Shown here: positions 1 to 19,121 of the stretch, in pieces
Numbering within the stretch: the first letter of the stretch is position 1
Layout of the letters: every line of letters begins with the position of its first letter
IMG/VR virus record: IMGVR_UViG_3300046463_001303
Coordinates: 1-42,557 of that record
Direction: 5' to 3' (one strand)
Source: a virus
Length of the DNA: 42,557 nucleotides
Position numbers and translations under genes: made by a program
Notes under the pieces: generated by a model
The model's input: only the letters and a program-made list of their open reading frames with translations
Database searches by the model: none
What the model was told of the DNA's origin: nothing

Positions 1-357
1 ATGCTGGAACCAAGTCATAACGACGAGCTCCCGCCGATTCCCGGCAAGCGCTACTTCACCATCGGTGAAGTCAGCGACTTGTGCGCGGTAAAGCCCCACG
101 TACTGCGGTACTGGGAACAGGAATTCCCGCAGCTCAACCCGGTCAAGCGTCGCGGCAACCGGCGGTATTACCAGCGCCAGGATGTGCTGATGATCCGCCA
201 GATCCGCGCTTTGCTTTACGAGCAGGGTTTCACCATCGGCGGCGCACGCCTGCGCATGTCGGGGGACGAGGCTAAAGACGACACCACCCAGTACAAACAG
301 CTGATCCGCCAGACCATCTCGGAGCTAGAGGATGTGCTGTCGGTGTTGAAGAAATAA
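1..357 (+). CDS. MerR-family transcriptional regulator (host flank)
   Basis: A 118-residue protein with a MerR-type winged helix-turn-helix at about residues 18-87: the [10 protein letters not shown] helix, the [10 protein letters not shown] segment and the wing [11 protein letters not shown] are all recognisable. There is no effector domain, only a short C-terminal helix (residues 97-118), so it is a minimal family member. In Pseudomonas this gene is known to follow ihfA and precede tRNA-Pro, and the tRNA is indeed downstream here. It is host chromosome, not phage. The start codon is the first base of the window, so an upstream start cannot be excluded, but the length fits the family. The target genes are unknown. 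Confidence 0.9.
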
Positions 358-475
358 GTCGGAAAAAATCCTTCCGTTTTTCAAATGGTTAAGGTATATT
401 TTTTGCGCTTTCAGAGGTTTGGGAGCGGCTTCGAAGCTTAGGTTTCTGGGCCTGATTGTAAGAGTTACGCTCGGT

Positions 476-552
476 CGGGGCGTAGCGCAGCCCGGTAGCG
501 CACTTGCATGGGGTGCAAGGGGTCGAGTGTTCGAATCACTCCGTCCCGACCA
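476..552 (+). tRNA. tRNA-Pro (anticodon GGG); probable prophage attachment site
   Basis: A 77-base tRNA with a complete cloverleaf and encoded CCA. The acceptor stem CGGGGCG pairs with CGTCCCG with one G-T wobble. The anticodon stem CTTGC/GCAAG closes the loop ATGGGGT, giving anticodon GGG. The T arm carries GTTCGAATC. Integrase lies 90 bases downstream with its 3' end facing the tRNA, the usual geometry for tRNA-integrated phages, so the 3' half of this gene is the likely attachment core. The gene is intact, so the phage restores the tRNA end on integration. Confidence 0.97.
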
Positions 553-15702: not shown

Positions 15703-16130
15703 AGCCGGCCGCTATGAAAGCCTTCGGCCCGCGCGCCGCCCGCGCCAAGCCAGCTGACCGCGAAGGCCAGGAGCAGGCGGCGCTGATGCGCGAGGTTGAG
15801 CTTCGGTATCCAGAGGCCTTCAAGCTGATCTACCACGTGCCCAACGGAGGGCACCGGCACAAGGCCGTGGCCGCGAAGTTGAAAGGGCAGGGCGTCAAGG
15901 CCGGTGTGCCGGACCTGGTGCTTCCGATGGCGCGCGGTGGGCACTTTGGCCTGTACATCGAGTTCAAGGCCATGCCGCCGTTCGACGCTGCGGTGTCGGC
16001 CAGCCAGGACGCTTACATTCAGGCCCTGATCGCCCAGGGCTATCTCGCGGTGGTGTGCCGCGGGCACATCGATGCGCTGGAGTGCCTGCGGGCGTACCTG
16101 CTCCAGCCCCCAACGAGGGTCGCAGCGTGA
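15699..16130 (+). CDS. VRR-NUC domain nuclease
   Basis: 143 residues. The core LIYHVPNGGHRHKAVAAKLK, GVKAGVPDLVLPMARGGHFG and LYIEFKA has the VRR-NUC motif: GVPDL carries the metal-binding aspartate and EFK the glutamate and lysine. VRR-NUC enzymes cut branched DNA and are used by phages for recombination or Holliday-junction processing before packaging. ATG overlaps the previous stop. Confidence 0.9.
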   Translation: MKPAAMKAFGPRAARAKPADREGQEQAALMREVELRYPEAFKLIYHVPNGGHRHKAVAAKLKGQGVKAGVPDLVLPMARGGHFGLYIEFKAMPPFDAAVSASQDAYIQALIAQGYLAVVCRGHIDALECLRAYLLQPPTRVAA

Positions 16131-17422
16131 CAATGATCGTGGCTTTCTCAGACGCCGAGCTGCGCCGACGCGCCGATGACCCGGCCTCGGTGCTGATGCG
16201 CGACCCGCGCCACCCAGGCCTGTACTTCCGCTTCACCGAAGCCCGGCCACGAGGCACCTGGAGTCTGGTGGTGCGCAAGAAGTGGTTGCGCATAGGGTCC
16301 TATCCCGAGCTGTCGGCCAAGACTGTACTGGCGGCGCTGCCGGAAACCCGTCAACGACTCGGCGCCGACGCCAAGGCCACTGCCGCCATTTGCCCATGGG
16401 CAACGCTCGGCGAGCTGCTGGCATGGTACAGCGACAGAATGGGTCGCGACCGGCACCTGTCGGCCAAGCGCAAGAACACTGCGAAGTCTGCTATTGCCTG
16501 CCACTTGATCCCGCGCGTGGGAGGCCTGACCTTCGCCGAGATCGATCGCGCCACACTCGACACCACGCTGATGTGGCCGCTGCAGGAAAGCCTGTCGCTC
16601 GAATTCGTGCGGCTGATCTTCGCGCTGCTGGTGCTGGCCTGCCGCCAAGCGTTCGTCTTGGGCATGACCCCCTCCAACCCCATGGCCGGCATCAAATTCA
16701 GTGACTTCTCCAAGACCAAGATCAAGGCCAAGTCGGCGCGCCTGCGTGGTGTGCAGGTCGAGGGCCTGCTCGAGCAACTGGCCGAGGCCTTCGATCGACG
16801 CCCAGCCCACGGCATGCTGGCCTTGATGATGCTCTGCCATGGCACGCGCGTAGGGGAAACCCGTATGGCGCTCTGGTCGCACATCAGCCTGGCCGACCGC
16901 ACTTGGCACCTGCCAGCCGTACACACCAAGACCCGCGTCGAGCATTCGCTTCCACTTACAGAGCAGGTCTGCGCGCTGCTGAGCCGCTACCGCGCTGCCC
17001 AGGTCGCCATCGGCTACTCCGGCCAATACCTGTTCCCGGCGCGCCACGGCAAGGGCATGAGCGAGACCCAGGCAAGCATGGTGTTCACCCAGCTGGGGCA
17101 GGGCGAATGGACTAGTCACGACCTGCGCAAGTTAGCCCGCACCGGCTGGGCCGACCTCGGTATCGACTTCCTGATCGGCGAGATGCTGATCAACCACGCC
17201 ATGGGCCACAACGTGCAGGCCTACATCCACACCACCGTGGAAGCCCGCAAGCGTGAAGCCCTGGAGAAGTGGCACACCCATTTAGACGCCAAGGGATTTG
17301 ATGTGATTCACGGGTTGGAGGGAGTCGAAAACAAAAAGTCCAGCAACGGGCTACAGACCACGTCGCGCATGGGCTGCGAGGCATTTCAAGAATCAACCAT
17401 AGGCGAGGTTTCAAAAGCATGA
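16127..17422 (+). CDS. Second tyrosine recombinase, internal to the prophage
   Basis: 431 residues from GTG 16127 (GTGA overlap); ATG 16133 is an alternative. The N-terminal ~80 residues are an arm-binding-like region (GLYFRFTEARPRGTWSLVVR); core-binding helices follow (WATLGELLAWYSDRMGRDRH). The catalytic set is complete: R241, K268, H331 and R334 in HDLR, H357 and Y366. It lies in the nin-like region far from the attachment end, within an overlapping operon, so it is phage-resident rather than a second insertion. Candidate roles are resolution of genome multimers or a DNA-inversion function; integration is done by the other enzyme. Confidence 0.9.
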   Translation: MTMIVAFSDAELRRRADDPASVLMRDPRHPGLYFRFTEARPRGTWSLVVRKKWLRIGSYPELSAKTVLAALPETRQRLGADAKATAAICPWATLGELLAWYSDRMGRDRHLSAKRKNTAKSAIACHLIPRVGGLTFAEIDRATLDTTLMWPLQESLSLEFVRLIFALLVLACRQAFVLGMTPSNPMAGIKFSDFSKTKIKAKSARLRGVQVEGLLEQLAEAFDRRPAHGMLALMMLCHGTRVGETRMALWSHISLADRTWHLPAVHTKTRVEHSLPLTEQVCALLSRYRAAQVAIGYSGQYLFPARHGKGMSETQASMVFTQLGQGEWTSHDLRKLARTGWADLGIDFLIGEMLINHAMGHNVQAYIHTTVEARKREALEKWHTHLDAKGFDVIHGLEGVENKKSSNGLQTTSRMGCEAFQESTIGEVSKA

Positions 17423-17945: not shown

Positions 17946-18509
17946 ATGGGCATCTATAAAGACGTGATGGGCACCCTGGTGCGGGTGCTGGCCGCCGACA
18001 ACATCGACAACAGCACCAAGCAGTCCTGGCAAAAGCTGATCGACGCCGACGCGCGCCAAGGCGGCACCGGCAGCACGATCTCGGTCCGTGACAAGTTCGA
18101 TTACGACTGCTGCCTGTACGCGCTGCTGCATCGCGAGCTGGCCCCGGCGCAGTGGGATGTGCTGGTGGCCAAGTACTCCACGCACAAAGCCAACAAGGTG
18201 GCAGCGATCGGGCGCCTGGTCAGCCGCATGAGCACGCCGGCCCCTCAGCTGTTCGTCTACAAGGCGCTCACCGCCTGGGCAATCCCCAAGCTCAAGGGTG
18301 TGCAGACCGGCAAGCGCTCCACCGACATGATCGTGCTGCCCGCCGAGTTCTACGACATGAACAGCTGGGACCCTGACGGCTCGCCAGAGCGCACTCGCCG
18401 CAACTGGCGAGCCGGCATCCACAAGCGTTTGGAGCAGCTGGAAGAGGCCGCAGTGATCCATGCCACCGAGATCTTCGACGCCGAACAAATCTTCGTCGAC
18501 GCCGCTTGA
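17946..18509 (+). CDS. Putative late regulator in the position of antiterminator Q
   Basis: 187 residues, mainly helical and basic: CLYALLHRELAPAQWDVLVA, KVAAIGRLVSRMSTPAPQLF and RRNWRAGIHKRLEQLEEAAV. I see no diagnostic Q motif, so the name rests on context: last gene of the early operon, followed at once by a strong promoter candidate (its -35 overlaps the stop region), a terminator and the late genes. That is the lambda Q-pR'-tR' order. An alternative is a crossover-junction or structural accessory protein. Confidence 0.6.
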   Translation: MGIYKDVMGTLVRVLAADNIDNSTKQSWQKLIDADARQGGTGSTISVRDKFDYDCCLYALLHRELAPAQWDVLVAKYSTHKANKVAAIGRLVSRMSTPAPQLFVYKALTAWAIPKLKGVQTGKRSTDMIVLPAEFYDMNSWDPDGSPERTRRNWRAGIHKRLEQLEEAAVIHATEIFDAEQIFVDAA

Positions 18510-18535
18510 CCATGATGGCCGTTTGGCCGTAAATT
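18506..18535 (+). promoter_or_regulatory. Candidate late promoter (pR'-like)
   Basis: TTGACC (18506-18511), an 18-base spacer and TAAATT (18530-18535) form a near-consensus sigma-70 promoter. The -35 overlaps the stop codon of the Q-position gene. Transcription would begin near 18542 and reach a terminator after about 40 bases. Confidence 0.6.
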
Positions 18536-18578
18536 ACTCCAATCATGTCGATCTTGCGCGTATGAGAGAGACACCAGA

Positions 18579-18605
18579 AGCCCCGCCACTGTGCGGGGCT
18601 TTTTC
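18579..18605 (+). terminator. Strong terminator before the phage tRNA (tR'-like)
   Basis: AGCCCCGC (18579-18586) and GCGGGGCT (18593-18600) form a perfect 8-base-pair stem with a six-base loop and a T run. It stands between the late promoter candidate and all late genes, so late transcription would require antitermination. Confidence 0.85.
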
Positions 18606-18610
18606 GTTTC

Positions 18611-18687
18611 TGCAGGGTGGAGAAGCGGCCTATCTCGCCGGGCTCATATCCCGGAGATCGCTCGTTCGAATCGAGCCCCTGCAACCA
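18611..18687 (+). tRNA. Phage tRNA, anticodon CAT, initiator (fMet)-like
   Basis: A 77-base cloverleaf with encoded CCA. Acceptor TGCAGGG pairs with CCCTGCA; the D stem GAGA pairs with TCTC; the anticodon stem CCGGG/CCCGG closes the loop CTCATAT; the T arm is GCTCG-TTCGAAT-CGAGC. Three consecutive G:C pairs flank the anticodon loop, an A11:T24 pair is present and the 1:72 pair is weak (T:A). In bacteria these features mark initiator rather than elongator tRNA-Met. Discriminator A73 is kept. An isoleucine CAT tRNA is the alternative, but it lacks the three G:C pairs. Confidence 0.9.
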
Positions 18688-18749: not shown

Positions 18750-19121
18750 ATGGACCCTACTGACCTCGGCCCAGGAACAGCCACTTGGCTGGGCGGTAGT
18801 GGCACGGTCCTGCTCGCGGCCTTCCTGTGGTTGCGGAAGTTCCTCTCGCGGGACGCCACTGATCGCGCCATGGACAACGCCGATATCGGCACCGTCCGGC
18901 GCTTGAACGAGCTACTAGACATAGAGCGAACGAGAGCCAACGCCGCAGAGGCGCGGGCTGATCAGTTCGCCAAGGAGCGCAACGATCTCGTTGCCGCAGT
19001 TGGAAAACTGGAAGGGAAAATAGAAGCCCTATCCAGCCAGGTAGCGAGCCTTACAGACAGAGTGGCCACGCAAAGCGCGGAGATTTCGCGCTTGCGGTCG
19101 CAACTCGGAGGCGCAGCTTGA
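18750..19121 (+). CDS. Membrane-anchored coiled-coil protein, possible holin-system component
   Basis: 123 residues. One membrane segment near the N-terminus (WLGGSGTVLLAAFLWL, ~13-28) is followed by a long coiled coil (IGTVRRLNELLDIERTRANA to the end). It opens the late operon, before terminase, where many Pseudomonas phages carry lysis-control genes. CGGAG lies 5 bases before the ATG, after a weak hairpin (18714-18730). Holin or anti-holin action is possible but unproven. Confidence 0.7.
   Translation: MDPTDLGPGTATWLGGSGTVLLAAFLWLRKFLSRDATDRAMDNADIGTVRRLNELLDIERTRANAAEARADQFAKERNDLVAAVGKLEGKIEALSSQVASLTDRVATQSAEISRLRSQLGGAA

Follow-up and report, generated by a model that had tools for sequence, protein, structure and literature searches.

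Why would a phage carry an initiator tRNA of its own? The reasons that phages carry tRNAs at all are still debated, and an initiator is useless for compensating internal codons, so phage initiators with an altered nuclease site provide a clean test of the hypothesis that such tRNAs evade host nucleases. Phage T5 carries a tRNA-fMet. A preliminary description of the locus considered here recognised an initiator-like tRNA with a CAT anticodon behind a late promoter and terminator, and suggested that it could raise initiation capacity for late proteins or evade host tRNA cleavage. The window, by which I mean the whole stretch of DNA analysed, comprises 42,557 nucleotides of an IMG/VR virus record.

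Initiator features of the tRNA

ARAGORN calls a tRNA-Met(cat) with the exact span 18611-18687 on the plus strand, and the Rfam tRNA model scores 57 bits over 18611-18684 (gathering score 29, E 9e-12); a search of the entire window at the gathering threshold listed no match, apparently because of filtering. The gene and the parts of it that matter below are:

18611-18687, + strand: initiator-type tRNA(CAU) gene with its CCA encoded (ARAGORN, Rfam and identity comparison)
18640-18642 (GGG) and 18650-18652 (CCC), + strand: three anticodon-stem G:C pairs (29-31:39-41), typical of initiators (sequence)
18643-18649, + strand: anticodon loop CTCATAT, in which U38 (18649) adjoins C39 (18650) (sequence and comparisons; the 38|39 bond as the VapC site is from PMC4105405)

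All stems are paired, and the initiator signatures named in the preliminary description (GGG:CCC, A11:T24, a weak T1:A72 and A73) can all be read directly: the acceptor pairs are T1:A72, G2:C71, C3:G70 and A4:T69, the D-stem pair A11:T24 falls at 18621/18635, and A73 is present. Together with the CAU anticodon, the three G:C pairs and A11:U24 are the features by which an initiator is recognised. The first acceptor pair, U1:A72, is a weak Watson-Crick pair without mismatch, whereas E. coli tRNA-fMet has a C1xA72 mismatch; the formylation determinant is an unpaired or weak 1:72 (PMC4611024), and U1:A72 is common to 14 of the 89 distinct initiator-type tRNAs among the viral matches listed.

Identity comparisons point the same way. 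The tRNA is 77% identical to E. coli tRNA-fMet, which had been estimated by eye at about three quarters, and 75-78% identical to the fMet genes of three Pseudomonas genomes, but only 54% identical to elongator Met (metT/metU) and 57% to Ile2 (ileX). These values exclude assignment to the lysidine-dependent tRNA-Ile2 (CAU) and, with the weak U1:A72, to elongator tRNA-Met; fully paired stems and a score of 57 bits likewise exclude a chance match or pseudogene. Judged by its sequence, the tRNA is therefore of the initiator type, as first described.

The anticodon loop is the exception. It reads CUCAUAU where initiators have the conserved CUCAUAA, and for this reason I liken the molecule to initiators rather than claim full membership of tRNA-fMet, although CUCAUAA is a conserved feature and not a functional definition of an initiator. 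The Pseudomonas genomes used for comparison have CTCATAA (the fMet genes of the actual host are absent from the record). According to PMC4105405, which cites the original work, the bond that enteric VapC toxins cut in initiator tRNA is the one joining A38 to C39; the U38 substitution adjoins this bond and is absent from the Pseudomonas copies, which is the sequence pattern expected of a nuclease-evading phage tRNA. This loop change is a feature beyond those in the preliminary description.

Placement in a lambda-like prophage

The first ~550 bases of the window (1-552), the last of which belong to a tRNA-Pro(GGG) gene, match Pseudomonas chromosomes at ~74-77%. In one Pseudomonas genome 48 bases from the 3' part of that gene occur at several sites and may represent a prophage attachment core. 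Because of this host-like left end and the recurring 3' part, the window appears to be a lambda-like prophage integrated in tRNA-Pro(GGG); an integrase gene (646-1752, - strand) adjoins the tRNA-Pro gene. The gene order is lambda-like, running from integrase through antirepressor, replication genes O and P and phrog_3412 to the late genes (terminase, portal, head, tail). There are two tyrosine-recombinase genes, the one at the attachment site (646-1752, -) and another (16055-17422, +) shortly upstream of the late regulator. Around the initiator-type tRNA the features are:

17946-18509, + strand: 187-aa protein of phrog_3412 (unknown function), a homologue of D3 orf84, located where a Q-type late antiterminator would lie
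18506-18535, + strand: promoter-like site, TTGACC-18 nt-TAAATT, overlapping the stop codon of the upstream gene
18544-18560, + strand: block CATGTCGATCTTGCGCG, between promoter and terminator
18576-18604, + strand: intrinsic terminator, tR'-like, an 11-pair hairpin with a T run, 6 nt upstream of the tRNA
18750-19121, + strand: phrog_2658 gene ('hol-like chemotaxis'), the first coding gene behind the tRNA, which opens the lysis and late genes

A putative regulator gene with a late promoter and then a terminator behind it is the layout of a Q-type module. The promoter, block and terminator keep their positions in relatives with as little as 32-55% identity in the phrog_3412 protein, and a similar block (CCATC-TG-C--TC-TGCGC) is found in most of the divergent relatives. 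The phrog_3412 protein has no Pfam match and matches no known Q family among the PHROGs profiles, and a Foldseek search with its AlphaFold model gave no confident match; since neither profile nor fold connects it to a Q family, I infer the late antitermination step from the anatomy of the module. The tRNA abuts the terminator, behind the promoter and after the gene in the Q position, and thus its placement in the late operon, as originally described, holds for the window phage and also for related phages.

Is the tRNA a regular part of this module? Of 76 close relatives of the phrog_3412 gene for which at least ~300 nt downstream are available, only one carries it, and aligned close relatives have unrelated DNA between the terminator and the late genes. 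That sole sister copy (L388, 3179-3255) has A58 changed to C and other T-arm changes, keeps U38, and is possibly decaying. The gene can therefore be done without and may decay, and from these alignments it reads as an optional cargo gene, placed as the first late transcript. The slot behind phrog_3412 may hold a tRNA with U38, C33 or the canonical loop depending on the phage; L074, a relative with the same gene order, has the canonical one.

Pseudomonas phage D3 (Detrevirus) has a tRNA-Met in the same slot, after its phrog_3412/orf84 gene, promoter and terminator and before its holin genes. It is identical to the window tRNA at 67 of 77 positions (about 88%) and shares its initiator features, although the D3 record annotates it merely as 'tRNA-Met'. 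The two differ in the loop (CCCATAA, with C33 and A38, in D3 against CTCATAT) and at 1:72 (a C1xU72 mismatch against U1:A72), and in D3, unlike in the window, tRNA-Gly, -Asn and -Thr follow. A lone tRNA-fMet(CAU) is reported in Sinorhizobium phiLM21-like prophages (PMC12429752), again in a temperate phage, of another lineage. Initiator-type tRNAs are common on viral contigs and are found in named phages, D3 among them, and in these prophages, and the supposition that phages usually carry elongators, which would make this locus exceptional, is not supported in that form.

Loop changes in viral and cellular initiators

How unusual is the altered loop? A pattern scan of viral contigs that was blind to the loop gave at least 89 distinct stem-valid initiator-type tRNAs, a sample that is not phylogenetically independent and in which part of the canonical copies may be host DNA. 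Among the matches listed, 26 of 89 are changed at position 33, 37 or 38, mostly to U38 or C33 (12 depart from U33, six from A37 and 14 from A38), and the majority, 63 of 89, retain the canonical 33-38. The universal U8, A14, G53, T54, C56, A58 and C61 are each altered in none or one of the 89 listed. The same pattern applied to bacterial genomes of three phyla, minus the seed genomes, gave at least 146, 125 and 136 matches (counts that include multiple copies per genome), and 405 of the 407 listed have TCATAA at 33-38. Of the two that depart, L465 lies amid phage head genes in a prophage and L466 was given no tRNA call. The difference between 26/89 viral and 2/407 cellular matches listed has a Fisher p of 4e-19, which is nominal, given the phylogenetic dependence within the viral sample.

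With U38 required, the pattern matched 115 stretches in viral contigs. Across genomes from 84,980 species it matched 34, of which about half are not tRNAs. Canonical copies are also present in most of the 22 genomes with U38-pattern copies that were searched. All variant cellular copies that were profiled (L465, L469 and L470) lie in prophages, and phage genes flank the odd copy in two Pseudomonas genomes. Host contamination as the origin of the variant loops is excluded by these prophage locations and by the 2/407 listed for cellular genomes. Two further Pseudomonas genomic copies (G114 and G185; L467 and L468) are initiator-like, lack A38 (loops CCCATAG and CTCATGG) and sit beside tRNA-Leu(gag); with their abnormal T arms, they are probably decayed chromosomal copies rather than phage genes. 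The loop change is phage-associated, recurrent and almost absent from cellular initiators.

Have the variant tRNAs otherwise remained initiators? Across all scans, A11:U24 is present in 174 of 174 distinct variant tRNAs (the pattern fixes U24 but not A11), and a strong 1:72 pair (G:C or C:G) occurs in one of 174 as against 384 of 560 other tRNAs from the same contigs. Since they keep A11:U24 and shun a strong 1:72, the variants still resemble working initiators, and loop variation is accompanied by strict retention of the initiator hallmarks. The substitutions that recur among phage initiators are U38, C33, C38 and U37. For their independent origins a tRNA tree, built on few columns, is at most suggestive (84 label changes against 102 with shuffled labels).

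A possible role in evading initiator cleavage

In P. aeruginosa, cleavage in the anticodon loop is reported to produce tRNA-fMet halves (PMC11380944), and changes in the anticodon loops of phage tRNAs have been proposed as nuclease evasion (van den Berg et al., 2023; PMC10264068). In combination with the U38 of the window tRNA these reports suggest the following sequence of events. Once the late regulator acts, the terminator would be read through and the late operon would yield the tRNA before anything else. Host enzymes would charge and formylate it, as expected because the initiator features of its acceptor end and D stem are kept. The change from A38 to U, at the bond cut by host anticodon nucleases of the VapC type (PIN-domain), would block cleavage, and when an abortive response destroys the host initiator tRNA the phage copy would sustain the initiation of late proteins. 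A late-expressed, nuclease-resistant phage initiator altered at the cut site is the most economical reading, and I put its chances near even.

Its main rival is that the phage simply gains a greater supply of initiator for its late burst, the loop changes being neutral drift that is tolerated as initiators enter the P site only. The tRNA is indeed the first late gene by position, many viral copies have the canonical loop, and C33 is the natural state of metazoan cytoplasmic initiators (PMC9023262), so that initiation can work with a loop of this kind. Drift, however, should neither cluster at 33 and 38 while other universal positions stay fixed nor be nearly restricted to phages, and I regard this explanation as unlikely, if credible. 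Alternatively, the gene may be a captured host initiator that decays in the prophage as a non-functional passenger, as its rarity in close relatives and the altered T arm of the sole relative copy might imply, but the window copy is fully stem-paired and scores 57 bits and the variants as a class retain their initiator hallmarks, and this is the least probable of the explanations considered. Only a little easier to credit is a specialised initiator, whose altered loop, rather than resisting nucleases, shifts start-site choice or contact with the ribosome or initiation factors towards phage mRNAs. The changes do flank the anticodon, with the GGG:CCC stem and acceptor features retained, but several different substitutions recur, which is easier to reconcile with escape from recognition than with a single tuned decoding property.

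The preliminary interpretation as a whole is partly supported. Of the two functions that it proposed, evasion of cleavage gains support at the sequence level from U38, and extra initiation capacity is possible without accounting for the loop change. A wider form of the altered-initiator reading, which I advance tentatively and as falling somewhat short of an even chance, is that phages widely encode initiators with U38, eukaryote-like C33, C38 or U37 loops as a nuclease-proof second initiator pool, and that depletion of initiator is a common antiphage defence that has been answered many times. The class of loop-altered phage initiators points to cleavage of initiator tRNA as a defence against phages.

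The window tRNA shares with those of van den Berg et al. (2023) a loop altered near a known nuclease cut site. That study deals with mycobacteriophage tRNAs and other hosts, whereas here it is the initiator itself that is altered, across many phages; the present proposal thus extends the published evasion idea to initiator tRNA and qualifies the remark in the same paper that S. flexneri phages as a rule avoid carrying a tRNA-fMet gene (PMC10264068). The C33 of D3-type copies is also that of the metazoan cytoplasmic initiator (PMC9023262), to which they are unrelated by descent, while the window copy combines U33 with U38. Among viral tRNAs of other isotypes, 30 of 638 also lack U33, so that C33, at least, is not peculiar to initiators, and an effect of the loop unrelated to initiator cleavage is therefore possible. 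In some phages (L335, L326, L058 and L304) several elongators (Glu, Val, Thr, Ser, Leu and others) have C33 or another base in place of U33, as if the change had spread through much of the tRNA set.
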